From Oegoconia quadripuncta (taxonomy: Eukaryota > Arthropoda > Insecta > Lepidoptera > Autostichidae): 64,000 nucleotides of DNA. A program made the translations under genes and the position numbers. The notes under the pieces are model-generated. The model was not told the origin of the DNA. It did no database searches and worked only from the letters and a program-made list of their open reading frames with translations. Positions 26,025 through 45,287 of this stretch are shown here, one piece after another. The stretch covers positions 3,785,001 to 3,849,000 of the forward strand of contig OX438748.1 in the NCBI GenBank assembly GCA_949316235.1, read 5' to 3'. Position 1 is the first letter of the stretch, and each line of letters starts with the position of its first letter.

Positions 26025-26094
26025 TTCCTAGAGTACTGTTGTAATCAAAGTCTAAGATGAAACTGTAAAGAATTATTATTAACTTTGTTTATAT

Positions 26095-28340: not shown

Positions 28341-28401
28341 TTGAACAGTTTGTTGGTCCTGAAAGGACCTTTTTATAATGTATGAACCTTAAAATAACCT
28401 T

Positions 28402-28674
28402 TTAATATTCATGAAGCTTATTAGTTGCAGCCATACGAGTGCGAATATCTAAATCTTCCAAGTATTTAATACATGCCGTATCAGGACACAATTTAAACAA
28501 ACACCAGAAACATGATCGGAACCCGTACATTGTATAGTAACCGTGTTTGGTGATTAAGGCCTCTTGTATTTCACATATTTCACATATTTTCTCAACTTCT
28601 ACATAAGTTTCTATAGACCGCTTTATGACGTCCATTTCGAATGAAATCTCTCCCAAATCTAAACCACATCGCAA
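28402..28674 (-). CDS. Cysteine-rich subterminal protein, 90 aa, copy 2
   Basis: Small protein of unknown function encoded just inside the left terminal repeat and read toward the end of the element. It has cysteines near residues 3, 31, 34, 55, 58, 63 and 68 in CxxC-like spacing, a pattern suggesting a small zinc-binding fold. I do not recognise the family. Support for it being real is a diverged counterpart in mirror position at the right end (44675-44800), which keeps the CEIxEALITxHGY and YGxRxCFxC residue patterns. Conservation at protein level between the two ends argues for past coding function. It stands alone, more than 2.5 kb from the plus-strand block. Confidence 0.55.
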   Translation of the reverse strand: MRCGLDLGEISFEMDVIKRSIETYVEVEKICEICEIQEALITKHGYYTMYGFRSCFWCLFKLCPDTACIKYLEDLDIRTRMAATNKLHEY

Positions 28675-28801
28675 ATATTTAATTACTTAAATAAATAAAT
28701 GAACAAATCCGGTGCTATACACACTAGATAATGGATAAAAATATATTAATGTAAATATGTAAACATCGTTAGACACTTAATGTTTGTATTTATCTGACAA
28801 A

Positions 28802-29147
28802 TATTTGCCCCTAGCGAGAATCGAACCCGCAGTATTTTGGTTTCAAACCAGGACACTACCAGTCGGTCGTCAAAGTCTCACCCCAATAAGCCAAATCATA
28901 AGAACTATATGAATTAACCATCGTTTAAAATTTACCCCTAGCGGGAATCGAACCCGCATCGGCTCGTTTCTTAAACAGTATAGTACTCACTACGCAAGCC
29001 GTCGTTAATATCACCTTTCAATAAACCAAATCATGAGAATTAATAGGTACATATCCTTTGATTAATATTTTCTCCTGCCAGGAATTGAACCCATAACCGT
29101 TGATTAAGGGTATTGAATATACCTTAAGTACTATAGACCGTATTATT
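28802..29147 (-). repeat. Three tandem tRNA-like units, copy 2
   Basis: Identical to the array at 12190-12535, including the related spacers. Part of the non-coding left region of the element. Confidence 0.55.
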
Positions 29148-29385
29148 TAATACATAAATCTTGAATTGTTATACTATAATCGAAAGCAGAACCGTTTTAA
29201 CAAAAGCGTGGGAAAAGAGGAAAGCCATGCACCTGACAACACTGCTGCTGTTATAATAAGTTTGCAACCTGACGCTTGCTCATGTTTCGCTATGTTGCTG
29301 GTTAAATCAAAATACGTGCATGCCTTAGCGTCAAATGTTATAATGTCTAGGTAGGTACAAAGATAGATCGCAAAGTACACCACCC

Positions 29386-29771
29386 ATTTTTAGGGTTCCG
29401 TACCCAAAGGGTAAAACGGGACCCTATTACTAAGACTCTGTTGTATCTCATGAACAGTGATAGACAGTTGAAATTTTCACAGATGATGTATTTCTAGTGT
29501 CGCTATAACAACAAATACTAAACAAACAGAATAAATAAAGTGATTGTTTTGCTCGTTTTTGGTCGATATTGTATATGTCGATAACGGCAACAGGTAGACG
29601 CTTGAAATATTCACAAAATATTTAGTTCTATATTCACTTTAAAAATAAATAATTAAAATAAAACAAATATTTAAGGGGCTTCCCATACAACAAGCGTGAT
29701 TTTTTGCCGTTTTATAGATAATGGTAGAGAACCCTTAGTGTGCGAGTCCGACTCGCACTTGGCCGGTTTTT
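29386..29771 (+). repeat. Dispersed lepidopteran repeat nested in copy 2
   Basis: Same nested repeat as at 12774-13159, at the identical internal position. Confidence 0.6.
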
Positions 29772-29907
29772 ATTATTTCTCGAGTTCGGTCTTGCGATGA
29801 AAATGAGAATGCGAGTCGCCTCACCTTTATCATTTACATATCGTATATCTTCTTAAGTCTGTAAACGTTTATAGCTTATGTTAATAAATTGAAATATTTA
29901 TAAATAG

Positions 29908-29908
<1 letters not shown>

Positions 29909-29939
<31 letters not shown>
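29909..29939. repeat. TA microsatellite in copy 2
   Basis: Same tract and same length as at 13297-13327. Confidence 0.9.
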
Positions 29940-29944
<5 letters not shown>

Positions 29945-30329
29945 AATATTTGTAACCACCCCATTTGGGATAAGAGTCGTGAATGTATATATGTATTTGC
30001 TTGTGAATTGTACTATTGAATTAACATTAGTGAGACACCTTTTATCTAGATAATATACGAATTGACGCAAATTAAAGTTTTAATGCAGCTTGAATTATGC
30101 ACAGTTGACAAAAGACCGATAAGTGGAATTGCTAGCTATAGTGTCACCTCCCGAGTTACTTGTATTTTAATGAAAATTATTTATTTCTTCACTAGCTATC
30201 AGCCGTGACTTTATCTGATTTTGAAAGTGCTGAAAATACACAAAACATGTTCGATAAAAATAATCGACCTATGATTATGATATTAAGGTATTTTGTCTGA
30301 TAATTAATTATAACTCTTGATATTTGAAC

Positions 30330-30582
30330 ATATGGGCTCAGTGATTGAAATGCGGGTCCTTTGGGAGATTCGGGTTCGATTCCCCTACCTATGTGCGAAT
30401 GAGTTTTTAATTGAACTTAGGTAAGTGTGTTTATCTGATTGCTCGTAAACTCTTAATTCTCTAGAAATAATCGAAGTTACTATGAAGTACCCAACTCGCA
30501 CTGGATCAGCGTGGTGGACTATGGTCCATACTCTCCTCCATCCCCTTACAGTGGGATGTTTAGGAACGGATGATGATAACAT
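30330..30582 (+). repeat. tRNA-derived SINE nested in copy 2
   Basis: Identical to the SINE at 13718-13970. Confidence 0.6.
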
Positions 30583-31281
30583 ATTGAAGTACTCCCGAAC
30601 TAAGCAATGATACAGCAGTGTAAATTTAAGTATACACTCCGCGTAACTATCTTCGTTTGGTTTTATACGAATTAGTGATATCTCATTTGTTAAATTCGGT
30701 TAAAATGTTTTAGAATAACATACGAGTACATACAACTTGTGAAACACATTACCTTTCGTTTGACTTCGTCGTAGTTGATAATACAATCGCTTAGTCAGGT
30801 TTCATTTTACAAATACGGTGGAAACTGCAGCGCGTTGCGCGAAACAAATACACTCATATATTTATTTTCCTATAAAAATAACTGCAACTAAGCAAATCAT
30901 CGTGGGACAGTTGAGGCGATCAAGTGACTCGGTACAATAGGTCGTAAGTGCTTTTACTTAGCTGTTATTAAAATTTCTTCCTGCGTAGGAATTAAGTTTG
31001 ATTTGATAATGAATCAATAATGTAGTTAGGTATGTAGCAGTTTTGTATTGTTGATACCCATAAATACACAATATTTGAGTAAAATTTATTCATTCTACAA
31101 TTGTTTCTGTGACGATACCTATCATCTGCAACTGTGGCACCATCTTCGCTCCAATTAAAAAAAAATGTTAGTAAGTATATTTGAATATAAAACATAATCA
31201 TAAATAATTCTTGAATTATGGTCTAATATTTGATATATTTTATTTAAAATGTTATTATAATAATTTTGTTTCTATTTTCAG

Positions 31282-32215
31282 GTCGGACGTTGAATATAAT
31301 ACTTTCATCGAGTCGGACAGCTCTGACTCGCCGCCCTCACCGCCTGCGAAAGCGGTGCTGAAGAAGGCCCCGAAGAAGAAGGCACCCGCAGCGGTGAAAA
31401 GAAACGCGCCTGCCGAGCTATCAGCATCAAATAGGTAAAAATTAGACCTACACATTTCCACTCATACATATTTCAACATTGTGTGTTTATGGTTAAACTT
31501 TACTTTACAGTTCCAACAAAAAGAAGTCTTGCCGTGGTCGCGACACAACCGCCGGCGACGCTACCGAGACCTCGACTTCGACATTGACAAGGTAAGGAAA
31601 ACTTACACTTTCTCTATCAAATTTAAAAAATAGCCAATGTATTTAACTCAACGGGCCACATCAGACCACTGTCCGACATCGATAGCAGGGTTTGAATTCA
31701 ATCATAAAATACTGCTGCCCATTTCTATGTCTGCGGACGTAGTAAATATTCTACCTCAATCATTAGTCTGATTATAACACCTTACTTGTGATGGGTTGGT
31801 GCGCTATTCTACTCTGAGCCACCACGCGGACATATTTGATGTTTATTTACCTATATAATATTGTTTCAGTTCCGGAGGGCTATTTGGCCTGGAGCCCGAG
31901 GCGTCGAAGCCGAAGTCTTCCACGGCGAAGCAGGTACTTCAGACTTACTTAACGACCCGAGTCCCTGGCGGGAGGGTGCGCCGGGAAGCTTTTCACCAAA
32001 GCGGTGAATATTTCCTGGAAGTGCGTGTATACAACACGGAGGAGGCGACCTCTGCAGTCCCGGATCAGAGGTGGAAACACGCGGAGGTGACGTTAAAGGT
32101 CAAATTAAATAGGGGGACTCCGCAGTGGGAAAAGCTGCAAGCTTTTATGAAGCGGAGTCACGAGCTATTTAATGACTGCGAGCCCGTATTTTTTAGTGAA
32201 AAGATTTTTAAATAG
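31282..32215 (+). CDS. Spliced Lys/Ser-rich element protein, 3' exons, copy 2
   Basis: Three exons can be defined by consensus splice sites: 31282-31434 (acceptor TTTTCAG, donor GTAAAA), 31511-31591 (acceptor TTTACAG, donor GTAAGG) and 31870-32215 (acceptor TTTCAG, stop TAG). All three junctions are phase 2, so the exons stay in frame. A 5' exon holding the start codon must lie upstream and I could not place it. The first exon encodes an acidic-serine then proline/lysine/alanine-rich stretch. The second is lysine/threonine-rich. The last is a compact roughly 115-residue domain with many Trp, Phe and basic residues. I do not recognise the family. Position directly before PolB and the basic tail-like composition would suit a DNA-binding or replication accessory role, but that is inference. 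Confidence 0.6.
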
Positions 32216-32404
32216 GTACCTACATTATCATGAGGGTTAACCACCATTTTCAAATACATATATAATATAGGTATCTATTTAAAAACATTTTCATTTGTCA
32301 CTGTGCCGCTTCTCTATTCAACTTAATTAATTAATTAATACTAGATTCATAATATTATTTAGTACCAGATAACTTACACGTTAGTAATAGCATCTACTTA
32401 TAAA

Positions 32405-35400
32405 ATGCCATTTTGTACCGTTTGTAAAATCGCCGTTGATCGTGATCATTGGGCAGGTCATTTGCGAAGCATTAACCACAAAAACAAAAATATTTCCCCT
32501 TTTAGCGAAGGTATTGAAATTATAAAGACCGCATTTCGCAACCGGATAGCTTCATATAGAATAATTGCGTCAGATTCTTTGGATTCAACTTCCGTGGAAA
32601 GGTTTTTTGACGACATACAAAACAAAACTAAAACATTAATTGATTTGTCTTTAAAGCAAAATTACTGTGTTAAGATCAATTTTGAATTTTTCGCTCTCTT
32701 TCTTTTGGTTAAAAATGATTCCCAAGAGATGAAATCATTTAACACGAAAAACTATACTATTCATCAAAATTACGATCATGATACATTAATGTGTGAAGTT
32801 AAAGATTATTTAATGAAAAAAATAAGTGAATTTCAACAGCGCGACAGTGGTTTTACATTTTTACATAATTCTCATTTAGAGGTTAACATTAATAAATACC
32901 AGCCCTTGCGCGGTTCAAGTTTCATCGAGCTGCCTGCTGCGATCAAGTCCAAAAAAGCGTGTGTAAACATAAAGAATCGTGACGATTTTTGCTTTTTATG
33001 GTCAGTAACAGCTGCTTTGTATCCGGCTAAGCGTCACCCTGACAGAGTATCATCTTATCCCAAATTCGAAGACGTGTTGAACGTGAACGATTTAAAGTTT
33101 CCAATGAGTTTTTCGGATATCGCTCGGTTTGAAGTCAACAACCCGCAGTTATGTATTTTTGTTTACGGTTTACAAGATAAAAAAATAGTTGTTGGGCCGC
33201 TTTACAAATCAGAACCATTGAACAAAAAAGTAATTCATATACTTTATCTAGAAGAAGGCGATATTTCACATTACTGTTTGATTAAAGATTTGTCACGCCT
33301 CGTTGGAAACCAAATTTCTAAACATCATAAAAAATTGCACTTTTGTGAACACTGTCTCCTATTTTTCGATTCAAATGGTCTGTTAAATTCTCATAGTTGT
33401 GGAGGTGTGGCTACCGTGTTACCGCCGAAAGGTTCTTTTATAGAGTTTGAAAATTATAACAGAAAGCAAAATATCCCTTTTGTTGTTTATGCAGACTTTG
33501 AAGCCATGCTTGAACGATACGACACATGCGAACCCGATCCTCTTAAGTCGAGCACGATAACTCAACAGCGACACGTACCAATTGCTTTTGCTTATCACAT
33601 TGTTTGTACTGTAGATGAACGGTACAATCATATATCTTTATATCGAGGTAGAGATTGCGTACAAAAGTTTATTGAATCAATTTACGACGATGCAAAGAGA
33701 ATTGACACAATATTAAATCAGAGTGTGTCCATGGTTTTCACAGAGTGTGACGCTCGCAACTATGAAAATGCCGAAACGTGTCACATATGCGATCGTCTTC
33801 TAGTATTAGATAAAGTGAGAGACCATTGTCACATGACTGGTAGATACCGTGGTGCAGCTCACAGCCGTTGTAATTTGCAATTTAAAGCGCCAAAGTTTTT
33901 GCCTGTATTCTTCCATAATCTCACGGGATATGATTGTCATCTTTTCATAAAAGAATTAGGTAAAGCTCCTGGACCTATCAAAGTCATACCTAAAACAAAA
34001 GAAAATTATATTTCTTTCACAAAATTTATTCCGATTACTGCGGAAAAGCACTTCCAAATACGATTTGTAGATTCTTTTAAGTTTTTAGGCACTAGTTTAG
34101 AAAAGTTAGCTTCAACAATGAAGAAGGATGATTTTAGATATTTGCGATCTTACTATCCTGATGAAAAGCTCTTCAATCTGCTTACTCGGAAGGGCGTATA
34201 TCCATATGATTACATGTGCAATTGGGAACGGTATAACGACACGTGTTTACCTTCAAAAGATAGTTTTTATAATTCGCTAACCAATGATCCGATCACGGAT
34301 GGTGATTACGAGCATGCTCAGGCGGTATGGTCAGAATTTTCTTTGATAAATATGGGTGAATACACCGATTTGTATCTTGAGACAGACGTTCTTTTGTTGA
34401 CAGATATCTATGAAAACTATAGATTAACATGCAAACAGTATTACCAACTCGATCCTGCATTTTATCTTACTGCACCGAGTCTTTCATTTGATGCAATGCT
34501 TCTGAAAACCCGCGTTCGTTTAGAACTTATAAGCGATATAGAAATTTTCCGAATGATACAACAAGGTATTCGAGGTGGTGTGTGCATGTGTTCTAAACGG
34601 CACGCTAAAGCAAACCATAGATATTTGGAAACCTTTGACCCAACTGAACCAAGTTCTTATATTGTTTATTTAGATTGTAATAATTTGTATGGATACAGTA
34701 TGTGTCACACATTACCTTATTCAAACTTTAGATTTTTAAATAACTCTGAGATAATATCTTTGGAGGCAAATATTACAAACGTTGCGGACGATGCGGAAAA
34801 TGGTTTCATTCTTGAAGTAGATTTATCTTATCCTTCCAATTTACACAGCGAACATAACGATTTTCCATTCTGTCCGGATAAAATCGTGTCACCTAAAGGA
34901 AAAACTAAAAAACTAATACCTAACTTGTATGATAAATACCACTATGTAATACATTACGTACACTTAAAAAAATGTTTGGAACATGGTTTGTTGTTGAAAA
35001 AAATTCATAGAGCTGTCACGTTTAAGCAAAGCAATTTTCTGAAAAAGTACATAGATCTCAACACAGAGCTACGTCAAAAAGCTAAATCTACTTTTGAACA
35101 AGATTTTTTCAAATTGTTAAACAACAGCATATTTGGAAAAACCTTGGAAAATACAGAACAACGGGTGGATGTAAGATTGGTCAATATGTGGTCAGACACG
35201 AATAATCAGACTAAAAAATGTACTGGTGCAGAAAAGTTGATAGCTAGTCCAAATTTCCATAGTGTTTCAATACTTTCTGATGATCTAGTAGCCATACAAA
35301 TGAAACGTTCGCGGATTGTGCTTGATAAGCCAATCTACATTGGATTTGCTGTACTGGAATTGTCAAAAAGTCACATGTACGATTTCCACTACTCTATAAT

Positions 35401-35926
35401 GAAGCCATTTTATGAAAATCGGATTGAGTTATGCTATACGGATACCGATAGCTTTGTATACACTGTACAAACTGATGATTTTTACGAAGATTGTAAAGTA
35501 AATTTTTTGAAATATTTTGACACTAGCAACTACGATCCGAGCAATGAGTTTGGTTTACCTATCATAAATAAAAAGATACCTGGACTATTCAAGGATGAAA
35601 TGGGTGGTAAGATTATTAAAGAATTTGTAGGACTCAGGTCAAAACTTTACTGTGTTAAGACCTTAGATAGAACGATAAAAAAGGCAAAAGGTACAAAAAG
35701 AAATGTAATTAAAGGTTTAAGTCTTTCAGACTATAAACATGTGTTGTACCATTGTGATGTTATTCGTAAAAAGAATGTACTTTTCAAAACAATAAAACAT
35801 GAAATTTTTACTCAGACTGTAAATAAAATAGCCCTTTCGAGCAACGACGATAAGCGATTGTTGGAATCCAACAAAGTGTCTACAATTGCTTGGGGTCATA
35901 AAGATATTTTTGGTTGTACAGCCTAA
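32405..35926 (+). CDS. PolB: Protein-primed family B DNA polymerase, copy 2
   Basis: Replicative polymerase of the element, 1173 aa, expected to copy the genome from a terminal-protein primer. Order of motifs: a C2H2-like zinc finger at residues 4-25; a second Cys/His cluster near 312-335; exonuclease motif I (YADFEA, about 360-365); an endonuclease-VII-like Cys/His segment (CHICD...HCHMTG...RCN, about 458-493); exonuclease motif II (LTGYD, about 506-510); exonuclease motif III region (about 653-672); polymerase motif A (DCNNLYGYSM, from about 757); motif B (LLNNSIFGK, about 903-911); and motif C (YTDTDS, about 1011-1016). All key acidic residues are present, so it should be active. The length suits Polinton polymerases. 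The ATG follows an A/T-rich leader, and two diverged direct repeats follow the stop. The frame is uninterrupted. Confidence 0.96.
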   Translation: MPFCTVCKIAVDRDHWAGHLRSINHKNKNISPFSEGIEIIKTAFRNRIASYRIIASDSLDSTSVERFFDDIQNKTKTLIDLSLKQNYCVKINFEFFALFLLVKNDSQEMKSFNTKNYTIHQNYDHDTLMCEVKDYLMKKISEFQQRDSGFTFLHNSHLEVNINKYQPLRGSSFIELPAAIKSKKACVNIKNRDDFCFLWSVTAALYPAKRHPDRVSSYPKFEDVLNVNDLKFPMSFSDIARFEVNNPQLCIFVYGLQDKKIVVGPLYKSEPLNKKVIHILYLEEGDISHYCLIKDLSRLVGNQISKHHKKLHFCEHCLLFFDSNGLLNSHSCGGVATVLPPKGSFIEFENYNRKQNIPFVVYADFEAMLERYDTCEPDPLKSSTITQQRHVPIAFAYHIVCTVDERYNHISLYRGRDCVQKFIESIYDDAKRIDTILNQSVSMVFTECDARNYENAETCHICDRLLVLDKVRDHCHMTGRYRGAAHSRCNLQFKAPKFLPVFFHNLTGYDCHLFIKELGKAPGPIKVIPKTKENYISFTKFIPITAEKHFQIRFVDSFKFLGTSLEKLASTMKKDDFRYLRSYYPDEKLFNLLTRKGVYPYDYMCNWERYNDTCLPSKDSFYNSLTNDPITDGDYEHAQAVWSEFSLINMGEYTDLYLETDVLLLTDIYENYRLTCKQYYQLDPAFYLTAPSLSFDAMLLKTRVRLELISDIEIFRMIQQGIRGGVCMCSKRHAKANHRYLETFDPTEPSSYIVYLDCNNLYGYSMCHTLPYSNFRFLNNSEIISLEANITNVADDAENGFILEVDLSYPSNLHSEHNDFPFCPDKIVSPKGKTKKLIPNLYDKYHYVIHYVHLKKCLEHGLLLKKIHRAVTFKQSNFLKKYIDLNTELRQKAKSTFEQDFFKLLNNSIFGKTLENTEQRVDVRLVNMWSDTNNQTKKCTGAEKLIASPNFHSVSILSDDLVAIQMKRSRIVLDKPIYIGFAVLELSKSHMYDFHYSIMKPFYENRIELCYTDTDSFVYTVQTDDFYEDCKVNFLKYFDTSNYDPSNEFGLPIINKKIPGLFKDEMGGKIIKEFVGLRSKLYCVKTLDRTIKKAKGTKRNVIKGLSLSDYKHVLYHCDVIRKKNVLFKTIKHEIFTQTVNKIALSSNDDKRLLESNKVSTIAWGHKDIFGCTA

Positions 35927-35940
35927 AAGTATGATTTATG

Positions 35941-36312
35941 GAACTATTAGGATTTAGTTTAAATTTACTATAATATTGATATAAATAAATGTATTCAAAA
36001 TATTAACGAAATTGTTATTCGGACTGTAAGTAAATAATTTCTTATGATGCATCTACACATAAGTATTATATAAATAACTGTAGCATGATATTTGAAAATG
36101 TTTTAAGTATTTAGAAGATAAACATTGCTGTATCTAACTATATTCCGAACTATTAAGATTAAATAAATGTATTCAAAATATTAATACACGAAATTGTTAC
36201 TCGGACTGTGAGTGAACAAATTATTATATCGTAACACATAATATTGTATATATAACAATAGTTAACGTGCCATTTGAAAATGTTTTTAATATTTAGAAAA
36301 TAAAAAATCGTA
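35941..36312 (+). repeat. Diverged tandem repeat downstream of PolB, copy 2
   Basis: Two units of roughly 206 and 165 bp, starting GAACTATTA at 35941 and 36147. They share AAATAAATGTATTCAAAATATTAA, CGAAATTGTTA, TCGGACTGTGAG-like and TTTGAAAATGTTTT blocks. Each carries AATAAA-type poly(A) signals, so the duplication may provide repeated 3'-end signals for the polymerase transcript. Confidence 0.65.
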
Positions 36313-36489
36313 TATATTCTAAACCAAGTTTCATTTAATTAATCCAAGGTATCCTGTATGTTTTGAAATGGTTATGACAAGTTTAAACATGTTGCAAATA
36401 GCTATTGCGCAATTTGTACTTGTACAAAAATGCTGGGTGCGAATGGAACAGGTGTAAACTTGCGGTGGTAAAAGCGGGAGAGCTAAGTA

Positions 36490-36653
36490 TGTGATCTACG
36501 TGCTCGGGCGCGCAGCGCAGGGGTACGAGGTGAGGGAGCGGTTCATTGTATCACGCATACACCTCTTCCAATCGTCACTCATCATTAGTTTGTACAACGC
36601 TACAGACAATTTGCATCTTCCTGCTTTTGAAATAAATTATCACCTAATTTACA
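36490..36653 (+). promoter_or_regulatory. Putative promoter and 5' leader of the spliced acidic-tailed gene, copy 2
   Basis: A locally GC-rich stretch (GCTCGGGCGCGCAGCGCAGG) in otherwise A/T-rich DNA lies about 130-160 bp before the start codon. It is followed by an arthropod-initiator-like TCATTAGT. No TATA box is evident. This is inference from composition and position only. The same sequence is at 19878-20041 in copy 1. Confidence 0.3.
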
Positions 36654-37214
36654 ATGGTAAGTTAAATTAAATATTTCTTTTATTGTATACCTATACCAAT
36701 TGTGTTATTTTCTTTCCAATAATGAAATTTCTTGTTACAGAATAACATTCGAGACGCCGATGTTACTGCTGTACCAGTTGACGCCGAACCTAGAGAGCTG
36801 TCATACTCTCCCGTGTTTCTATACGGACATCACCAAGATCTGTTGGATGGATTTTCTGAAGACTTTCCGAACGTGCAGTGCTCAACTCAAAATTCAGCAC
36901 ACAAAAATAGAACACAAAAGAAGACAAAACCAAGCAAAAAGGGGGCTAGCAGTTCGAACGTCACAAAGAAATCTCGTCGAGAGACTTCGTTTGTCCTCAC
37001 CAGAGAACCGAGCAAAGGAATAAGGCTTATTAAGATTAAAATATTGGACTTGCAAAACTCAAGTGAAAGTGATAGTGAGAGTGAAAATGAAAAAAATATT
37101 TTATTATGTGCACATTATGTTGTAAAAGATGTGTGTGATGACGTTATGGACCAAACGGAACGTCTAGTTAGCAATATTTCAAAAAAATTGTGCAATAGCT
37201 ACTACAGTTTTTAA
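36654..37214 (+). CDS. Spliced acidic-tailed element protein (start codon is its own exon), copy 2
   Basis: Coding exons are 36654-36656 (just ATG, followed by donor GTAAGT) and 36741-37214 (acceptor TTGTTACAG), giving 158 aa. The second exon has no in-frame ATG near its start, and the ATG|GTAAGT junction supplies one in the right frame, so this structure is well supported. The protein has a basic patch (residues about 50-80, many Lys/Arg/Ser), an acidic run (SSESDSESENE, about 115) and a short C-terminal helix-like tail with two Cys. I do not recognise it. The charge pattern suggests a nuclear or nucleic-acid-binding accessory protein. It is the last gene of the plus-strand block and converges on the minus-strand block. 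Confidence 0.6.
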
Positions 37215-37454
37215 ACCATAATCCTGGTTTGTACCTTAAATTTATTATTGTAATACTTTTTATTTCAATAATTTTAAATATTTATTTTATAAGTAGTTTT
37301 AATTTAAATTTAAATTTTGTTTAAATTATTTTTAAATAAATTACTCATTTAACTAAAACAGAATAACTTTGTTTCTTTTTACTATTACTGTAGCTTTCTT
37401 GAAGAGTGTGTGTAGTTAAAAAAATAATAAAAGATTTTATTATGTAGTCACAAA

Positions 37455-37955
37455 TCATTTATTTAAATTAAAAAGATACATGTTGTTTTCGTAAAACCAT
37501 TTCCGAATACAGATTACATTTTTTAAAGCACACGCTTTTTTATGAAAACTACAATTTAGAGATTTACCTTTACAATATTTTTCATGCAATGTAAAAAAAT
37601 TAGGACAACCTTTTTCTCCAATATCTACTACACTACACTTATTGCATAGTTCGTTTATCCACTTAACTTTTTCTAATCCTTTCACAAATATATTTTTGTT
37701 TTCTAAAAGTTCTTCAGCAATTCGTTTAAATTCTCTGTAATCGATAAATCCTTGATTCCAATATATACCTCTATTTCGTTCAATCCAAGAAACTTGTTTA
37801 CGTTCATTATTTGATAAACTGGAATATGTATAAGGAGGTTTAATTAGAAACACCTCACTAGAATCTGCATTTGCCAAACTCAATTCCTTAATGATGAAGT
37901 CATTATTCATGTCCTTAAAACCTTGAACATCAACGAATATATCATTTGCATTCAT
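37455..37955 (-). CDS. Cys/His-rich protein with possible exonuclease-like N terminus, copy 2
   Basis: 166 aa, last gene of the minus-strand block. The N terminus (FVDVQGF, then a KEL acidic position about 15 residues later) resembles the first motif of RNase-H-fold DEDD exonucleases, with Gln in place of the usual Glu. The C-terminal half is rich in Cys and His (CNKC...C...H...C...C...H...C), suggesting zinc binding, and ends in an H..AC..N...I..WF pattern reminiscent of the last exonuclease motif. Assignment to that fold is inference; the catalytic set is incomplete as far as I can see. Its ATG overlaps the stop of the major capsid gene in ATGA, so it is probably co-transcribed and translationally coupled. 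Confidence 0.6.
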   Translation of the reverse strand: MNANDIFVDVQGFKDMNNDFIIKELSLANADSSEVFLIKPPYTYSSLSNNERKQVSWIERNRGIYWNQGFIDYREFKRIAEELLENKNIFVKGLEKVKWINELCNKCSVVDIGEKGCPNFFTLHEKYCKGKSLNCSFHKKACALKNVICIRKWFYENNMYLFNLNK

Positions 37956-39163
37956 GATATTTTCTTTACAATACTAGTCAAGGGCTTGTATTCAAAAATG
38001 CAGTCGTTTAATATCAAACAGTAGGCAGACGTTTGGTCAGGAATTAATGTATCAGTTTCTAATTCAATTCGAACATCCACGGGACCGCCTGACTTCAAGT
38101 TTTCCACTTGGCGAGAGCAATCTATCACAAATAGAGGTGCTTTAATTTTAAAATCTTCAAAGTTTAACAACGGGTCTGGACGACGTCCATGGTAAGACTG
38201 TTGAAATTTTGTATACTGTTCATATAATAAAGAATAATTATTATTATCAAAACTCAAATTGAAATTTTCATAGGGAAAATAAGTAGAATTAAGAAACACT
38301 TTAATATTTCTCAAATTACAATGATCGAATTGCGTCATATTTCTATTGACATGATTCTTACGATCAGTTTGGAGTCCTAAAATGACATATCTTGGTTTTT
38401 CTATCTGAGAGGATGTTTTTATAGACCATGTATGCTTTGAAGTTTTAGGAAGTATTGGGTACTCATATAGATCCCAGTTCCTAAAAATAAGATTTAATGA
38501 ACGATCTTTTTCTAAATGACGGAGTAAGTTAACTCTTTCTCGATCGTTGACTTTAATGTGAGGTACACGCCACACAATTTTACTGATTTCAACTTTTTCA
38601 ATGAATTCTTGAGGTGCGAGTTTAACCGCATTTACATTTGTATTGCTTCGAAGTAGAATAAGTTCATGTTTAGAGTTTATTATAATTTTGTTATAATCTT
38701 CTGCAAAGCCAAACATTTTGTTGAGTGGTATGGAACCTGAAAAATATCCTCCATTGTTTTTTGTCCCATCGATATTCCATCCCCAGCTTTGAGACATTTT
38801 CGAATCGCCTTCATTCATAGATAAGAGAGATTTCATAGTCGTTGTAATACCTGCATTTTTAATTTTATCAATTTCTACTCCGTTAAGTTCATAGCGAATG
38901 TCTTGAAATAAATATAAAATCGGATTATTGGTAAAATAAAACTCAGATGCTTGAGCTTTAGTTTCCCTATTAATAATCTTAACATAACCTTCTATGTATA
39001 GCGAACTAGCTGACGGTAAAACGTACAGGTCTTGTTGATTAATTGGTATACGTATCTCATCATTTAGACCAAAACTTGTCACATAAGGTTTGTAGGAATG
39101 AAACTCATAGCTTTCTATGGAATTATCATAGATGGGAGCATCTGTTACGTTAAGAATACTCAT
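37952..39163 (-). CDS. MCP: Major capsid protein, double-jelly-roll type (probable), copy 2
   Basis: 403 aa, rich in beta-prone and aromatic residues, with no membrane segment. I assign it as the hexon-like major capsid protein from its overall pattern: an N-terminal half with YLFQDIRYELNG and IPLNKMFGF elements, a second half with repeated strand-like segments, and an acidic C-terminal DLIPDQT-like segment (ETDTLIPDQT) before the last strand. Its position next to the penton-like minor capsid gene also fits. It is shorter than many Polinton capsid proteins (often 500-650 aa). The start is ATG 39161-39163, overlapping the previous stop as ATGA. The end overlaps the next ATG in the same way. 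The fold is not proven by motif alone. Confidence 0.72.
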   Translation of the reverse strand: MSILNVTDAPIYDNSIESYEFHSYKPYVTSFGLNDEIRIPINQQDLYVLPSASSLYIEGYVKIINRETKAQASEFYFTNNPILYLFQDIRYELNGVEIDKIKNAGITTTMKSLLSMNEGDSKMSQSWGWNIDGTKNNGGYFSGSIPLNKMFGFAEDYNKIIINSKHELILLRSNTNVNAVKLAPQEFIEKVEISKIVWRVPHIKVNDRERVNLLRHLEKDRSLNLIFRNWDLYEYPILPKTSKHTWSIKTSSQIEKPRYVILGLQTDRKNHVNRNMTQFDHCNLRNIKVFLNSTYFPYENFNLSFDNNNYSLLYEQYTKFQQSYHGRRPDPLLNFEDFKIKAPLFVIDCSRQVENLKSGGPVDVRIELETDTLIPDQTSAYCLILNDCIFEYKPLTSIVKKIS

Positions 39164-39330
39164 TTTAACAGCCCGATGATCTTGAGGAAATCCTTATTTT
39201 CTTTTGTCAATTTTTTCGTGCTTTTCTTCTTTTGTTTCTTAAGTAGTTTGCAAGATGTTGTTTCTTTGATGGTGAGTTTAGTACTAGTACTGCGACATAT
39301 CGGTGTAGGATATTTATTAAAATCTATCAT
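39160..39330 (-). CDS. Small basic protein, 56 aa, copy 2
   Basis: A 56-codon frame that exactly fills the space between the minor and major capsid genes. Its ATG (39328-39330) overlaps the minor capsid stop, and its TGA (39160-39162) overlaps the major capsid ATG, both as ATGA. The central part is strongly basic (residues about 28-46, mostly Lys with Gln and Ser). The fit to both junctions argues that it is a real gene. It could be a core or cement protein, but I do not recognise a family. Confidence 0.65.
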   Translation of the reverse strand: MIDFNKYPTPICRSTSTKLTIKETTSCKLLKKQKKKSTKKLTKENKDFLKIIGLLK

Positions 39331-39998
39331 TTTTTCTTAAGATGTAAATAAAGTTGTATTTCTTCTTCTCGCAAATTAACCAAATTATTATTTACATCCA
39401 ACACCCGTATATTAATTGAGTTTATACTATTTTGATTTACAGGAAAATAAATAATGTTTTTTGGGATTTCTATGATTCTATAACCTGGTGGTACATTAGG
39501 TGCAAACTCATGAATTATATGGCTAGGCTTTCCGTTTACAAAAGATCCTCTAACAATATCACATTCGATCCTTAGCACTGTTGTAGATAGAATGTTGATA
39601 GGATAACGAGATTCATGTAATATATTAGCTTTCAAGGTTTCCTTTCCGAAGCCTAAAATTTTGCCAATTGAATCACTTTTCATGAAATGCATATCTTTGG
39701 AACATAGAATTGTGGTTTTCAAAGTATTGTTGTTGCATGATAGTTTAAATGTACAATTGTTTACTCTACTTTTCAAAAAGTCACTAATATCTTGAAGTTC
39801 GTACGATCCTTCTGGTATTTCAATCACATAATTTTCACCGTAGTAGAATTTATTGTTTCTGTTGTCTACGTTTGGTATAGAATTAAATGTAGAAAAATAC
39901 AACAGACCACATTCATATTCTCCATCTAATTGTAAAGCAGGTGAGTAGTGTGTTGTCAAAGTTGACTTTATGTCAGATATTGACAGTGTGAAGGACAT
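39327..39998 (-). CDS. mCP: Minor capsid (penton-like) protein, copy 2
   Basis: Predicted vertex protein of the capsid, probably a single jelly roll. I chose the ATG at 39996-39998 (223 aa, starting MSFTLSISDIKS) because it comes 17 bases after the protease stop. A longer frame from 40085 is possible but its first 29 residues overlap the protease and look unlike a protein start. Motifs I recognise from Polinton minor capsid proteins are FNSIPNV, an aromatic YYGENY strand, and IPEGSYELQDIS, the last at about residues 65-80. It lies immediately upstream of the 56-aa gene and the major capsid gene, as expected for a structural cassette. Confidence 0.75.
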   Translation of the reverse strand: MSFTLSISDIKSTLTTHYSPALQLDGEYECGLLYFSTFNSIPNVDNRNNKFYYGENYVIEIPEGSYELQDISDFLKSRVNNCTFKLSCNNNTLKTTILCSKDMHFMKSDSIGKILGFGKETLKANILHESRYPINILSTTVLRIECDIVRGSFVNGKPSHIIHEFAPNVPPGYRIIEIPKNIIYFPVNQNSINSINIRVLDVNNNLVNLREEEIQLYLHLKKK

Positions 39999-40015
39999 GT
40001 TGATAATGATGTCAT

Positions 40016-40408
40016 TTAATAGATATGATTTGTTATAAATGATCTCCAAAAATTTTTTAAGAACTTTAAACATAAGTGACCACAATTTACAGAATTGAAA
40101 CTTTGATAGTTAAGATAATTATAAAATATATTTTTATTATTCAAGTATTTAGACAGCTCTAAAGGAGGCTTTAAATCTCCAAAACTATCGAAATACTCGC
40201 AATATTCATTTAATTTAACATAGGCTACCCAATGTGTGCCTTCGTTTTTGTAACTGTCTAAATTGACAATAGCACATTCAATTAGTCTTGATTTTTTTGG
40301 CAATTTATCTCTCATAAAAACACCTCTAAAGTAAGGTATTTCTATAGCTTTAGCATATTTAATAATATCTAAATTAGTTAGAGCTCGTCTGGGTAGCCTA
40401 AAGCTTAG
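40016..40408 (-). CDS. PRO: Adenain-like cysteine protease, probably made by -1 frameshift, copy 2
   Basis: Maturation protease of the adenovirus C5 type. Counting from the internal ATG (40313-40315): His28 (GTHWVAY), Asp43 (YFDSFG), Gln71 and Cys78 (NCGHLC). The Gln-Cys spacing of 7 equals that of adenain, so the catalytic set is complete. The conserved N-terminal part (IPYFRGVF and the helix before it) lies upstream of that ATG in a frame with no start codon of its own. That frame is open for 31 codons back to the A AAA AAC site at the end of the PLA2/pX gene. I therefore give the frameshifted extent, 130 aa after the shift. A short form from the ATG (99 aa) is possible but would lack the conserved N terminus. 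Confidence 0.85.
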   Translation of the reverse strand, partial: LSFRLPRRALTNLDIIKYAKAIEIPYFRGVFMRDKLPKKSRLIECAIVNLDSYKNEGTHWVAYVKLNEYCEYFDSFGDLKPPLELSKYLNNKNIFYNYLNYQSFNSVNCGHLCLKFLKNFWRSFITNHIY

Positions 40409-41133
40409 TTTTTTGAAGGAGAAAAAAATAAACCAGCTCCTTTTTTGTAGGGTTTGATGTATAACCCTTTCCCTAGCGCAATCGACTCCATAGCCTGATT
40501 GTGACGCTTGGATTCTAGTAAATTCTTTTGAGCCGATTTATATTCATTAACTGTTTTTGCAATACCTGCTGCTCCACCAGCTAATGCACCCAGGGCTGAT
40601 AGTCCAGCAAAAATTGGTATTAATGGCAAAATGCCTCCGCTTTTTGGAATCGGAATTACGCGAGGTAAACGAATATTTGAGTTTTTAGGAAGCAACTTAT
40701 TTGCTGCGAACAAAGCAAATTTAATAGCTGCTTTATTATTCTTTGGTTTATATTTCTTTAATTGAGCGCGAATCTTAGAAACAATTGATTTTAATCCTTT
40801 AATACCCGCACCAGCCTTTAACTTGGCTTTCATAACCTTGCTCACTAACCACGATGCCATTTTTTCACCCGTGCCCGCATTTTTCGAACGAACTCTTCTT
40901 TTAGCCATTTTTAATAATTTTGAATCTGCTTTATGACGATCTTCCAAATTTTTGAATTTCGAATAAGCAATATCGTGACTCTTACAAGCGTTGTCCAAAG
41001 GATTTATACCTTTGTCGCCTCGTAATAAGCGTTCATTTAGTTTAGTGCCAGGACCGCAGTAATTGTACCCTGGTATGTGTAATTCAAATGGTAAGTTATT
41101 TATTGCACTGTTGAGGAGTCCTCTTCCTCGCAT
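40405..41133 (-). CDS. Phospholipase A2 / pX-like virion protein, copy 2
   Basis: 242 aa. The N-terminal part is a parvovirus-VP1-type phospholipase A2 domain: calcium loop YCGPGT (25-30), then LDNACKSHDIAY (46-57) with catalytic His53-Asp54. Such domains help particles breach endosomal membranes. A Lys/Arg-rich middle (about 60-160) would suit DNA or core contact. The C-terminal part has a Gly/Ala hydrophobic segment (IPKSGGILPLIPIFAGLSA, about 162-180, running on to 192) like adenovirus pX/mu-type core proteins. Candidate adenain-type cleavage sites are MRGR|G (1-5) and LAGG|A (184-188). The gene follows the integrase gene and ends at a frameshift heptamer leading into the protease, so a fusion product is likely. 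Confidence 0.82.
   Translation of the reverse strand: MRGRGLLNSAINNLPFELHIPGYNYCGPGTKLNERLLRGDKGINPLDNACKSHDIAYSKFKNLEDRHKADSKLLKMAKRRVRSKNAGTGEKMASWLVSKVMKAKLKAGAGIKGLKSIVSKIRAQLKKYKPKNNKAAIKFALFAANKLLPKNSNIRLPRVIPIPKSGGILPLIPIFAGLSALGALAGGAAGIAKTVNEYKSAQKNLLESKRHNQAMESIALGKGLYIKPYKKGAGLFFSPSKN
40408..40414 (-). promoter_or_regulatory. Candidate -1 ribosomal frameshift site A AAA AAC, copy 2
   Basis: The last three codons of the PLA2/pX gene read TCA AAA AAC and are followed at once by TAA. A AAA AAC is a classical X XXY YYZ slippery heptamer (the type used by mouse mammary tumour virus gag-pro). A -1 slip enters the protease frame, which stays open. An 8-base complementarity (40398-40405 with 40346-40353, loop 44) could form a stem, though its spacer of 2 bases is shorter than usual. 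Confidence 0.7.
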
Positions 41134-41225
41134 AACTGTGCAACTAATGTGATTCCAATGTAAACCCTTGAATTATATATAACATGTGATTGGTTTTGTA
41201 ATACCATGAAGAAACTTAATAGTTT

Positions 41226-42155
41226 TCATACAACCGCTCTTTTATCGATCCAGCTATTTTCGCTTTTACTTAGTCCTAACCATTTAACAAATAATTTGTT
41301 GCCTTTTCTTTTCAAAACTTTTTCAACTAAATATACATCAGGATACTTTGACTTCTGGAGTTCCTGCTCATAAAAAGACCCTAGTATTATTTGATTTCGT
41401 TGATCTTTGATTTGATATGTAACTGGATTAGTTTTATTTACTTTTGTAATAGTAAATATTTCAGTCGACCAATTAGGAGTATACCCTTTTTGGAAACTTC
41501 CTTTGTATTTGCTAATTCGAACAGAATCTCCAATACTAAATTTAATTTGTGTTAGTAACGGAATATTTGAAGAATTTGCTATATTCCACAATACTGTAGA
41601 CTGATTCCTTAGATTTACGTCTTTTGGTTTGTATTTAGTAATTCTATGAACACTATTGTTGTAAGAATCAACAATATTACTCAAGGGTTTACCTACCCAT
41701 TTATAGTTTCCTATAAAACTAAAATATTTATATAATTTGCTTTTAAGAGTCTTGATAACTCTTTCAACAATGGATGCCTTCTTGGTAGAATAAGTGGAAT
41801 AATGATTTACTTTATATGAAGTAATTAAGGTACGGAAACAATCGTTATAAAATTCTTTGCCTAAATCTGTTTGCAAATTAATAGGAGTACGTTTAGAATT
41901 AACAAGGACTTTTTTGAATGAATTACTTACTTCAACCTTGGATTTTGATTTAATAGGCATAACCCATACAAATTTAGAAAAGGCATCTATAATAACCAAA
42001 ATATACTTGTAACCACTGTTAACTTTTGCAACACTTTGCATGTCAATTAAATCGGCTTGCCACAAATCATCAATGCCTTTTAATATGACAGATCGTCGAA
42101 CAAAATTTCTTCGTGCTGCTTTATGAATTTCATCAACAATTTGTTGTTTAATCAT
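41226..42155 (-). CDS. INT: Retrovirus-type integrase with chromodomain, copy 2
   Basis: 309 aa DDE integrase that would insert the element and create the 6-bp duplications. Catalytic residues are Asp35 (WQADLID), Asp97 (TDLGKEF) and Glu131 (SIVERVIKTLK); 33 residues separate the last two by my count. An SH3-like region follows (about 200-265). The C terminus is a chromodomain (YLVEKVLKRKGNKLFVKW, then WLGLS...NSWI, about 275-304), which in related elements directs insertion to certain chromatin. The usual N-terminal HHCC zinc finger is not evident. Its start overlaps the fibre-like gene by 8 bases. There is no reverse transcriptase or gag nearby, so this is not a retrotransposon. Confidence 0.92.
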   Translation of the reverse strand: MIKQQIVDEIHKAARRNFVRRSVILKGIDDLWQADLIDMQSVAKVNSGYKYILVIIDAFSKFVWVMPIKSKSKVEVSNSFKKVLVNSKRTPINLQTDLGKEFYNDCFRTLITSYKVNHYSTYSTKKASIVERVIKTLKSKLYKYFSFIGNYKWVGKPLSNIVDSYNNSVHRITKYKPKDVNLRNQSTVLWNIANSSNIPLLTQIKFSIGDSVRISKYKGSFQKGYTPNWSTEIFTITKVNKTNPVTYQIKDQRNQIILGSFYEQELQKSKYPDVYLVEKVLKRKGNKLFVKWLGLSKSENSWIDKRAVV

Positions 42156-42636
42156 TTTTTATTGATTGCAGCATGGCATTTACTTCAGATTTAGTATAAT
42201 ATTTTTCTAAGAGCTTCGATAATAACGAAGATATACCAGCTCTGAAATCGTTAAACTTTATTGTTAATTGTTGTTCTGTGCAAAAGTTATCGACTATATT
42301 ATCAACATACTGCTTATTCACTGCATCGTTTGCAGAAGAAGGATATTTCAGTCCCGTCAATCTTGCTGAATGTAAATAAAATTCCCCCTCTTCAGATTTG
42401 ATCAAGGTTTTTGAAAAGTCGATTGATTCTGTTTCTTGCTTTTGATTAATCAAGTTGTCTATATATTCCTTATTTACAGCATCATCTGCAGTTAAAGGGG
42501 ATTTTACACCTTTCAACCTCGCGAAATGCAAATCGAATTCTCCTTTTTCGGACTTTACCAACACCTTATCAAAATCAAAAGACTCAGACCTTCGTAGACG
42601 CTTATGAACGTGATGCCCAAATTTATCAAGGTTCAT
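42148..42636 (-). CDS. Phage tail-fibre-like protein, copy 2
   Basis: 162 aa built from two tandem repeats (residues 19-63 and 71-115, about 60% alike). Each ends in a DAVNKxYxDN segment preceded by an LHxARLxGxK strand-like stretch. This pattern, and the C-terminal YTKSEVNAML, are typical of bacteriophage tail-fibre and tail-collar proteins, where such units trimerise. A trimeric fibre or spike on the virion is a reasonable guess. It lies between the DUF8207-like gene and the integrase, overlapping the latter by 8 bases. No signal peptide or membrane segment. Assignment rests on repeat pattern only. Confidence 0.6.
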   Translation of the reverse strand: MNLDKFGHHVHKRLRRSESFDFDKVLVKSEKGEFDLHFARLKGVKSPLTADDAVNKEYIDNLINQKQETESIDFSKTLIKSEEGEFYLHSARLTGLKYPSSANDAVNKQYVDNIVDNFCTEQQLTIKFNDFRAGISSLLSKLLEKYYTKSEVNAMLQSIKND

Positions 42637-42706
42637 TTCCTAGAGTACTGTTGTAATCAAAGTCTAAGATGAAACTGTAAAGAATTATTATTAACTTTGT
42701 TTATAT

Positions 42707-43705
42707 TTAATTTACGATACCATTTTCTTTCAATTCCTCTATTATGGATATTATTTCATTATCCATTCCAGTATTTCCAGCATCACGCGAAGCCCATAGA
42801 AGTTTCAATCGATCAATTAATTCATTTGGATTATCCCAATAAACGTAATCAACATTTTTTTTTAGTATTTTTTTATTCGGTAACCCTGATCCTTGAGTTA
42901 AGTCGTCCATACTTTCAGAATCTTTATGACATAACTTCATGAATAATGGTCTAATTATTTGTGTATATTTAAGACCCTTATTACTTTTAATAGGTTTTGA
43001 AGTATCATAATCTCGCCGATGTGCGTTAGTATCTATTAACATAATTTTGTAATTTCGTTTATCATCTTCAGTTAGAAGTTTTAAGTTAGGTGTTTTCTTA
43101 AATAATAAATCCATTAATCCTGGTGTTTTCGTATAAGTTCGTTCAGCAACTGAAATTTTGCTGTCGGTTACAGTCACACGAGATTTTCCCATCATTAGCT
43201 TTCCTCGTTCTTTTCTTACACCGAACGGGATATTATCAAACATTTCAGAAGACATAGACCAAGAAGTGTGAGAACTAACATTCTCAGGCGTTCCAAAAGA
43301 CAGTCCGCTAGTATCAGACCTATCAGACTGATTATCAGATGTATTATTTTCTAAATATTCTGTTTCATTTGCACCCACATCACTTTCGTCATCATCATCT
43401 AGATATTCATTATGCGAATCACTGGGGCTAAATTTAAGTTTTTTAACAGTTGCTGCTGGAGTATATCTATAATTAAACTTTCGTTTTTTGGTCTTAGTAG
43501 TTTCTGGCGGAGTTCTATCTTTCTTATCGTTATTCACAGGAAACCTTTTGTTAACCATTTTTTTCAGAGGTTCTGTTATTGGTTTGAGAACAGATTCAAT
43601 GACCATGTCGTTGTTGGATCTAATATCCCGCATCATTTTAACTTTTTTTTTAACAGATTCTGCAGATTTTATTATTTGATTTTTTAATTTTTGTTCATTA
43701 TCCAT
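42707..43705 (-). CDS. DUF8207-like conserved Polinton protein, copy 2
   Basis: 332 aa. The N-terminal region is basic and helix-prone (1-50), followed by a Lys-rich low-complexity part, an acidic run (DDDDESD, about 100) and Ser/Thr-rich sequence. The C-terminal 170 residues are the conserved part, ending with DYVYWDNPNELIDRLKLL and NTGMDNEIISIIEELKENG. I recognise this ending from many invertebrate Polintons (assigned to DUF8207); its function is unknown. The gene sits between the ATPase and fibre-like genes on the same strand, so a structural or packaging role is possible. Confidence 0.75.
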   Translation of the reverse strand: MDNEQKLKNQIIKSAESVKKKVKMMRDIRSNNDMVIESVLKPITEPLKKMVNKRFPVNNDKKDRTPPETTKTKKRKFNYRYTPAATVKKLKFSPSDSHNEYLDDDDESDVGANETEYLENNTSDNQSDRSDTSGLSFGTPENVSSHTSWSMSSEMFDNIPFGVRKERGKLMMGKSRVTVTDSKISVAERTYTKTPGLMDLLFKKTPNLKLLTEDDKRNYKIMLIDTNAHRRDYDTSKPIKSNKGLKYTQIIRPLFMKLCHKDSESMDDLTQGSGLPNKKILKKNVDYVYWDNPNELIDRLKLLWASRDAGNTGMDNEIISIIEELKENGIVN

Positions 43706-43777
43706 ATTCGCAGTACCTTACTTACCAAGTTCAGAGCACAAAATGAAAATAAAAACTTGATCGTTGTATTTAAATCA

Positions 43778-44464
43778 CTAATCAAACATTATAAATGTAT
43801 CAAATTTCATTCTGTAGCAACCCTTATTTTTTTCACAGTCTTTATTTATTACTAAATAACTATAAGGTGTGATCCATACATTTGCACACATGTCTCGAAA
43901 CTGTAACCAATTCATATCACTATTAACATGTTCGTCATAAACGTGACGCAAATTGATATCATCTTGCTTGAACAGTATAATGAGGTTAGCATTATCACGT
44001 ATTAATTGCTTTGGGATTTTGCTATATGTTTGATTTAAATAAAAACAGTCAACATTTTTGTGCCTACCCATTGCAAAATAATCACGTATATTATTCTGAT
44101 TCCCGGTGGCAACGTCATCAAAAATTATGATGGAATTAGGAGCAGCTTCCGCGGGACTAAGAATTTCTTCGTTTTCATGATATTTCGTAAAAGATACATT
44201 TGGAACCATTTGGAAAACTTTTTGTAGAAATATGAACTTGGGTTGGAAGAGAGTCTTAGAATAAAGGTAAACATTTTGATATCGCAAACCATTTTCATGC
44301 AACAGCAAACCTATCATTAAATTTGTTTTACCGCAATTAGAGGGTCCAGAAATAATACAACGTATTGTATTTGGTAAAAGTTTTCCGTGACGTGAGATTG
44401 TCTTCCGTGGATCAGCGCAAATTTTTTCTAAATTTAATGAATGTGGTTGCTTTACAAACTTCAT
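43778..44464 (-). CDS. A32-like genome-packaging ATPase
   Basis: 228 aa FtsK/HerA-type motor expected to pump DNA into the capsid. Walker A is GPSNCGKT (40-47) and Walker B is IIIFDDV (112-118), followed by a QTYSKIPKQLIRDN arginine/polar segment that is characteristic of this family. The length is normal for Polinton ATPases. It is the first gene of the minus-strand block, so its promoter should lie in 44465-44670. The homologous region of copy 1 is missing beyond the gap. Confidence 0.92.
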   Translation of the reverse strand: MKFVKQPHSLNLEKICADPRKTISRHGKLLPNTIRCIISGPSNCGKTNLMIGLLLHENGLRYQNVYLYSKTLFQPKFIFLQKVFQMVPNVSFTKYHENEEILSPAEAAPNSIIIFDDVATGNQNNIRDYFAMGRHKNVDCFYLNQTYSKIPKQLIRDNANLIILFKQDDINLRHVYDEHVNSDMNWLQFRDMCANVWITPYSYLVINKDCEKNKGCYRMKFDTFIMFD

Positions 44465-44674
44465 GTTTCAGGAACAGCAACCTATTCAATCTGCATCGGG
44501 CAGGCGTTCAAATGAAAGTGAAATATTTTTTATGTATACATGAACTTTATGAACCATGTGTTCATATTATTAAATAATGTTATGCTATCATAAAGGAGGG
44601 GGTAAGCAATTCGACTATTAAAACAATAAGGTAGATCGGTAGGTAGGTTAATTACCACAGGCCTTCCAGTCAAG
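44465..44674. other. Intergenic leader of the minus-strand block
   Basis: Non-coding space between the ATPase start and the mirror-gene relic. It must hold the promoter of the late-type block if it is polycistronic. I see no clear TATA or initiator consensus. Confidence 0.35.
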
Positions 44675-44800
44675 ATGAACGTCAGGGATCAGTCTTTAGA
44701 AATGTGTGAAATTAATGAAGCTTTGATTACGAATCATGGTTATGCTATATTTTATGGACTGCGCACATGTTTCCATTGCATGCATGATGTACATAGATGA
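44675..44800 (+). pseudogene. Mirror-image relic of the cysteine-rich subterminal gene
   Basis: An ATG-started frame of 41 codons on the plus strand near the right end, read outward. It keeps the CEIxEALITxHGY and YGxRxCFxC patterns of the 90-residue protein at the left end. It stops early at TGA (44798-44800). The next frame continues the similarity (YxDDxxIRL) before ending near 44835, so a frameshift has broken it. Together with the weak outer homology this suggests that the terminal repeats once extended over this gene. Absent from copy 1 because of the gap. Confidence 0.6.
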
Positions 44801-45039
44801 TTCAAATATACGTCTTCATAATGTTCATACATAACCTTCAGATATAATCAACAGCTATTAAAAGGTCCTTTCAGGACCAAAAATTGTTCTATATGTTTCA
44901 ATATCGATTGCATGAAACGCAAAAAACTTTGCAATGAACGCAGAAATATTTAAAAGCGATCGAACGATATCTCACTACTAATGAATGTAGGTAACCCCGG
45001 AGTACAGAGTAAGGTAACCGGTCTACGTTGTAGCACAAA

Positions 45040-45287
45040 ATGATATTCTTACAACTACAGGTGATTTATATAGGTATCGTGATGGAGGGTTGAAATAACA
45101 GCGCCAATTCTTTAAATGACATATTGCACAGAGTGAGACGTACGATCATTCACCTCGTAAACTGATGGTGGGATAGAATGCACAACGATATTATTGGGCA
45201 TTCTAGAACACCAGAAGTGAAGGAGGCGAAGCAGGTGCGTAGCCGACTGAACGGATGGTGGTCTAGAATGCCCAATAATATCCTACT
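45040..45287 (-). repeat. Right terminal inverted repeat, copy 2
   Basis: Reverse complement closely matches the left end for about 180-200 bp, including the self-complementary outer arms, the GTGCATTCTATCCCACCA sub-repeat and the AATGATCG segment. More distant homology continues inward to about 44700, where it includes a relic of the left-end cysteine-rich gene. Confidence 0.85.

Follow-up and report, generated by a model that had tools for sequence, protein, structure and literature searches.

The junction between the gene of the PLA2-domain capsid protein (pX, or CAP) and that of the adenain-like protease in an insect Polinton is very probably a programmed -1 ribosomal frameshift signal, which would yield a pX-protease fusion in a manner resembling retroviral gag-pro. 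The junction lies in the 64,000-nucleotide stretch of Oegoconia quadripuncta DNA that was analysed here as a whole (the window). The original prediction had proposed such a fusion by frameshifting, and the sequence comparison argues in its favour, since the heptamer A AAA AAC and the -1 relation are kept in ten Polinton families and a Lys-Asn (KN) pair stands at or near the C terminus of pX in 120/120 near and 80/91 distant listed homologues.

By gene content and terminal inverted repeats, the element at 28077..45287 is a Polinton/Maverick (adintovirus). It is a full copy, bounded by 104-bp terminal inverted repeats (28077-28180 and 45184-45287), and encodes a packaging ATPase (Pox_A32 match, E 2e-6), an integrase (rve match, E 3.6e-10, together with a chromodomain match below cut-off) and a DJR capsid protein (DJR-like match, E 2e-109). 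The 1173-aa ORF at 32405-35926 is judged, by position and inspection only, to be a putative PolB. A 162-aa protein with an internal repeat, encoded on the minus strand at 42148-42636, has weak PHROGs matches to head-decoration and tail-fibre phage families (best E 3e-6) and may be a Polinton fibre or spike. A second, truncated copy at 11465-26957 (15,493 bp) is identical to the full copy, and a gap of 1.1 kb separates its end from the full Polinton. Elsewhere in the genome, too, copies of this family lie close together in pairs (for example on C11, C12, C1, C20 and C42); paired copies represent either tandem insertion or an assembly artefact. Among 30 loci (L002-L031), 26 equal the reference copy over 3,366 bp, the reference itself being counted, two carry a one-base difference and two diverge. 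The window's Polinton family is a very young amplification and, with 26 of 30 copies identical, its junction is therefore read from recent, little-decayed copies.

The junction lies on the minus strand throughout. pX (40405..41133, 242 aa, PF08398 at E 4.8e-16) ends in S-K-N and a stop, and its last codons read TCA AAA AAC TAA, just as originally described: the slippery heptamer A AAA AAC occupies 40408..40414, and the zero-frame stop TAA stands immediately 3' of it at 40405..40407. This heptamer is used in retroviral gag-pro frameshifting. The adenain-like protease, whose fold matches adenovirus proteinase, lies in the -1 frame (40016..40408), and its first codon, CTA, takes the last base of the heptamer. 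The further claim that this frame is open for 31 codons without an ATG also holds; the ATG-less N-terminal extension spans 40316..40408 and contains the conserved LPRRALTNLDI...IPYFRGVF, and the protease then continues to 40016. A zero-frame heptamer of the form X XXY YYZ is thus found inside the pX/protease overlap, and from the heptamer onward the -1 frame is open and conserved as protein. The same signal had been reported at 23796..23802, and an identical heptamer is indeed located there on the minus strand, in the truncated second copy.

Given that the window is AT-rich and AAAAAAC is common in it (45 observed versus 42.0 expected, the frequency of chance), a single slippery site is weak evidence, and the case rests on comparison. 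AAAAAACTAA is observed six times in the window versus 1.1 expected, and two of the six are the repeated junction signal. What raises the heptamer above chance is its conservation across families and homologues.

The assembly from which the window comes (45 contigs, 622.6 Mb) was searched for the protease. We scored 150 of 317 candidates, all 150 of which were matches, and read the junction at 86 of the 150 loci. Of these 86, 70 carry both AAAAAAC with its stop and a protease in the -1 frame. The 16 loci without the signal consist of two fragments without pX (L067 and L069), three members of family K (L070-L072) and 11 others (L073-L083). These last 11 loci belong to other groups and showed no pX within the sequence that was read; eight of them have a Met near the start of the protease frame (MNT or MDT). 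Family K keeps the -1 relation and has an A7 run, with AACAAAAAAATTTTG in place of A AAA AAC. A G GGT TTG site is seen further upstream in this family.

Ten families, A to J, were grouped by sequence and are represented by one member each, with protease identities of 52-100%. The comparison of homologous Polintons that the original prediction had called for shows both the heptamer and the relative frames to be conserved: in 10/10 families A AAA AAC directly precedes the stop of pX and the protease follows in -1, the stop being TAA in families A-I and TGA in J. Eight of the ten (A-C and F-J) have no protease-frame ATG between the upstream stop and the FRG motif; in D and E such an ATG stands two codons before AAA AAA. 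In family H, a stop immediately 5' of AAA AAA closes the protease frame ahead of the A run, so that the conserved N terminus can be entered only at the heptamer. The run is exactly six A in families A-G, always followed by C, and comes to eight in H, seven in J and 10 or 13 in I, where the heptamer is the end of the run. Inspection of the family junctions reveals no conservation of the -1 frame upstream of the heptamer. One locus of family G, L057, counted among the 70, carries seven extra bases before the heptamer that shift pX into the protease frame; pX and protease form a single open frame of 381 codons there, a natural in-frame fusion.

Codon usage at the site is also unlike that of the rest of the gene. 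AAC accounts for 36 of 144 Asn codons (25%) elsewhere in pX of the ten families versus 10/10 at the heptamer, and AAA for 244 of 326 Lys codons elsewhere. Treating the families as independent and conditioning on the amino acids, one obtains a joint probability of about 10^-11.3 for xxA AAA AAC in all ten, a figure that overstates the case since the families are related. Furthermore, between the heptamer and FRGVF, the -1 frame differs at 22, 15 and 52% of first, second and third codon positions, respectively (1288 pairwise codon comparisons), and this third-position bias argues that the extension is translated and constrained.

The same signal leaves a trace in pX homologues at the protein level. 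Among the 120 matches listed of 2583 homologues, KN forms the last two residues in 115, and is followed by one residue in three and by two in another two. A further search, started from the pX of family I, gave 1715 matches, of which 120 were listed and 91 of those were new and more distant; KN is terminal in 38 of the 91, followed by one residue in 26, by two in 14, by five in one and by eight in one. KN is thus no more than eight residues from the C terminus in 80/91, and 11/91 are without it. The pX stop can thus shift by one or two codons among homologues with KN retained. The residue before KN is always one that has an NNA codon, with zero exceptions among the 120 near and zero among the 80 distant homologues; the next residue upstream has no such codon in 21/120 and 36/80, respectively. 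The probabilities of this pattern are 9e-11 and 2e-21, values that are blind to phylogeny and overstate the significance since the homologues are related. KN with an NNA-capable residue before it is, on this comparison of proteins, the footprint of A AAA AAC. Sources of the homologues include the beetles Aromia, Molorchus and Aquatica, the hoverfly Episyrphus, the moth Dendrolimus (without KN) and also Spodoptera frugiperda, whose CAP (P0207) is 69% identical to pX and ends in P-K-N. No fused pX-protease protein was found among the 120 listed of 2583 (longest 273 aa) or among the 91 new sequences listed by the search with family I (longest 313 aa).

For the protease, 120 matches were listed of 1883 homologues. 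Thirty of the 120 start only after FRGVF, as expected where a usable start is absent, and 17 more lack LP before FRGVF. The other 73 include the LP motif and have their first M at differing positions, and in some of the more distant homologues the sequence opens with an M close to LPxRAL; such an M may stand for a predicted GTG or TTG start and is not proof of an ATG. In an AlphaFold2 model from a 34-row alignment (mean pLDDT 87.9), residues 10-19 form a helix and 25-30 a strand, and the first Met is residue 30. A form of 99 residues started at that ATG had been called truncated, and according to the model it would indeed lose the helix and retain no more than the end of the strand; the 31-codon extension is thus predicted to supply the first helix and strand of the adenain fold. 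The six best PDB matches found with Foldseek are all adenovirus proteinases (1nln, E 1.5e-6). The PF00770 score of the protease, 19.1 bits, lies below the gathering cut-off of 21.3, and PF00770 is carried by 5 of the 120 listed homologues. As for the His, Asp, Gln and Cys named in the original prediction, H57 and Q100 are invariant and D72 and C107 nearly so across 34 sequences; we take these four to be the catalytic residues. pX itself starts with M-x-G-x-G, as do 98 of its 120 near homologues, and the motif is near the start in only 8 of the 91 distant ones. It resembles what we take to be the adenain cleavage consensus, and by this analogy pX may be a substrate of the protease.

Outside the genome, one IMG/VR contig (L001) carries a related arrangement. 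Its protease is 43% identical and in -1, with no Met before FRGVFM, and the junction reads ACT AAA AAA AAA AAC CCA GAG TTT TAA, with an 11-A run; its upstream ORF has no significant match to pX. Transcriptional slippage is possible there, given the length of the run. The other IMG/VR scans returned only this contig (L088 is the same contig), and the GTDB contigs returned none. A pattern scan of IMG/VR for the heptamer plus both arms of the helix described below gave three matches, none with a significant pX or protease match, and these were taken as chance; one of them, L089, is phage-like by inspection.

A frameshift signal of this type is expected to be followed by RNA structure. The original prediction had drawn an 8-bp stem with a 2-nt spacer; the stem can be drawn, but it is absent from the predicted 197-nt fold and has no counterpart by eye in the other families. 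Instead, folding predicts a long-range helix. Its 5' arm, UAGGCUACCCAG, lies at 40389..40400 on the minus strand, 7 nt past the heptamer, and its 3' arm, UUGGGUAGCCUA, at 40221..40232 on the same strand, inside the codons of the HWVAY motif. A search for arms near the site found a common pairing in nine families, 5' (UAGG)CUACCCA(A/G) with UUGGGUAG(CCUA), of 8-14 bp. In these 9/10 families the 5' arm of the predicted helix starts 5-10 nt past the heptamer and its partner lies about 170 nt downstream; the helix is absent in family I. A 3' structure at a spacer of about 5-9 nt is thus present by prediction only (7 nt in the window).

Part of the 5' arm is formed by the Leu-Pro codons CTA CCC. 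These are kept in 9/10 families despite their rarity: with the site itself left out, CTA makes up 56 of 403 Leu codons and CCC 13 of 158 Pro codons. When codons are permuted with the protein preserved, the observed helix is attained in 0-12 of 300 trials for eight families, in 40/300 for C and in 215/300 for I. Codon sampling at the exact register and observed helix length gives P of 0.003-0.035 for eight families, 0.18 for C and 0.39 for I, and the 8-bp core alone, in the same register, P of 0.11-0.18 per family. In the thermodynamic ensemble, the core pair probability is 1.00 in families A-H; it is also 1.00 in J, with the second of two duplicated 3' arms. One family J locus, L068, shows a tandem duplication of the HWVAS segment by which the 3' arm is doubled. 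RNAalifold on the ten junctions returns the same long-range helix as the main helix.

Folding energies vary among the families. Against dinucleotide shuffles, the MFE z values are -4.5, -2.8, -1.5, -1.0 and -1.7 for A to E and -2.1, -7.0, -5.0, +0.8 and -3.5 for F to J, which makes the signal weak in C, D and E; against codon permutation, those of D (-0.03) and F (-0.39) are at chance. Folds of 100 nt show no common structure, with z below -2 in 2/10 families, and are uninformative for this helix because it spans about 170 nt. Pair counting shows no significant excess of covariation (shuffles reach the observed score in 147/500), as follows from a helix core that hardly varies, and arms taken from one family pair only modestly better than arms exchanged among families (P 0.025 by score and 0.044 by base pairs). 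For the predicted helix, support from covariation is weak. The fold of L070, from family K, contains a different, 9-bp long-range helix.

Could the frames be expressed by other means? The protease might be a gene of its own that overlaps pX, with initiation at an ATG or a near-cognate codon within the end of pX or by re-initiation past its stop, and with the heptamer reflecting a dual constraint on SKN in pX and FKKL in the protease. The original prediction had regarded separate ATGs before the protease N terminus, or a missing slippery site, as evidence against itself, and such cases do exist in a minority: the ATG two codons before AAA AAA in families D and E, M starts in distant homologues, and family K, which is without the heptamer. 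Many homologous predicted proteases likewise begin with M around the junction. However, these called starts are scattered and 30/120 of the listed homologues start only after FRGVF, in 8/10 families the stretch from the -1 stop to FRG contains no ATG (it may hold a non-ATG start), the -1 frame of family H is closed just before the heptamer, and by inspection that frame is not conserved 5' of the heptamer. Nor does a separate gene need a third-base A before AAA AAC or a downstream helix, and we consider this reading unlikely. A simpler variant, in which the heptamer is merely the codons of a conserved protease FKKL whose ATG was lost, was dropped because the upstream -1 frame is unconserved on inspection, family H is closed, and KN with its NNA-capable neighbour is kept in pX.

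Alternatively, the polymerase might slip on the A run and add one A to some mRNAs, thereby joining the frames. The longer runs of families H (8), J (7) and I (10 or 13) and of L001 (11) would suit such a process, as would family K with seven A and no canonical heptamer; yet families A-G have exactly six A, always followed by C, and a conserved downstream helix at ribosomal spacing would be unexpected, which makes polymerase slippage quite improbable. Splicing could also join the frames or supply a start, but it does not require the heptamer, and no splice-site-like sequence stands at a constant place in the junction alignment (judged by eye, unscored); we regard it as very improbable indeed.

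Under programmed frameshifting, most ribosomes would stop after A AAA AAC and release pX. A minority, stalled by the long-range RNA helix, would slip back by one base and enter the protease, so that slippage yields the pX-protease fusion and the dose of protease is a fixed minority. The protease would thereby be tethered to a virion component, carried into the particle and mature there, as in retroviral Gag-Pro. Slippage and its efficiency are inferred here, as are the packaging of the fusion and the role of pX as a protease substrate. Tentatively, a broader proposal may be made: that a gag-pro-like frameshift is the general route by which insect Polintons and distant relatives (L001) make their maturation protease, with the enzyme covalently joined to the C terminus of a membrane-active capsid protein. 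This would be the adenovirus cofactor arrangement in cis, a long-range RNA structure would govern dose and packaging, and dsDNA viruses would have invented retrovirus-style protease dosing independently. If true, frameshifting would explain how Polintons control their virion protease, and it bears on whether they form maturing particles. It would also mean that simple ORF calling truncates the protease (to the 99-aa form) and splits two parts of one product. The putative recoding signal sits in a class of element from which many eukaryotic DNA viruses have been proposed to descend, and a long-range stimulator embedded in an enzyme's HWVAY codons, as predicted here, would be unusual.

-1 frameshifting is known as a mechanism; as far as the open-access literature was searched, the capsid-protease setting is new, and no description of a PLA2-capsid/protease frameshift was found there. 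The accessible parts of PMC4028283, PMC12567637 and PMC11089739 make no mention of one. In Spodoptera frugiperda, the CAP and PRO of Sf Maverick 1 and 2 are described as separate ORFs (PMC5803895, in part), and the available part of that description mentions no frameshift. These elements resemble the present Polinton in their adjoining CAP (PLA2) and PRO, similar gene order (ATP, ORF2, INT, CAP, PRO) and chromodomain integrase. For adintoviruses, slippery sequences were predicted with KnotInFrame; penton ORFs may carry -1 frameshift sites, and a similar relation was hypothesized for a potential Hexon-Adenain fusion (PMC11071296, in part). Unlike the Polinton junction, that candidate has hexon or penton as its partner and is a one-sentence hypothesis; the adintovirus section, as far as accessible, contains neither a PLA2-capsid/protease junction nor a conservation test.

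Adenovirus adenain, which shares its fold with the Polinton protease, is activated in trans by a cleaved pVI-derived peptide (PMC8537868, in part). Both systems connect the protease with the C-terminal end of a minor core or capsid protein, which serves as activator there and would be fused to the enzyme here, although the link in the Polinton would be covalent. By analogy, we speculate that the pX end might act as a cofactor of the protease. A 3' stimulator formed with distant sequence has a counterpart in barley yellow dwarf virus, where, for the polymerase, a stem-loop that follows the site by 6 nt base-pairs with a loop at a distance of 4 kb (PMC5009743, in part); unlike the Polinton, this is a plus-strand RNA virus. 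The same source, in its accessible part, places A_AAA_AAC among the shiftiest sites, discusses the gag-pro pseudoknots of MMTV and SRV-1, and gives 5-9 nt as the much-studied spacer.

A close parallel is retroviral gag-pro, in which a structural gene likewise precedes a -1 protease and the signal combines a heptamer with a 3' structure. In contrast to a retrovirus, the Polinton is a dsDNA self-synthesising element with an adenain-fold cysteine protease; in place of Gag and an aspartic protease it would join a PLA2 capsid protein to that enzyme, and the stimulator predicted for it is no compact pseudoknot but a helix that extends over about 170 nt. The Polinton junction would work like gag-pro without being a member of gag-pro.
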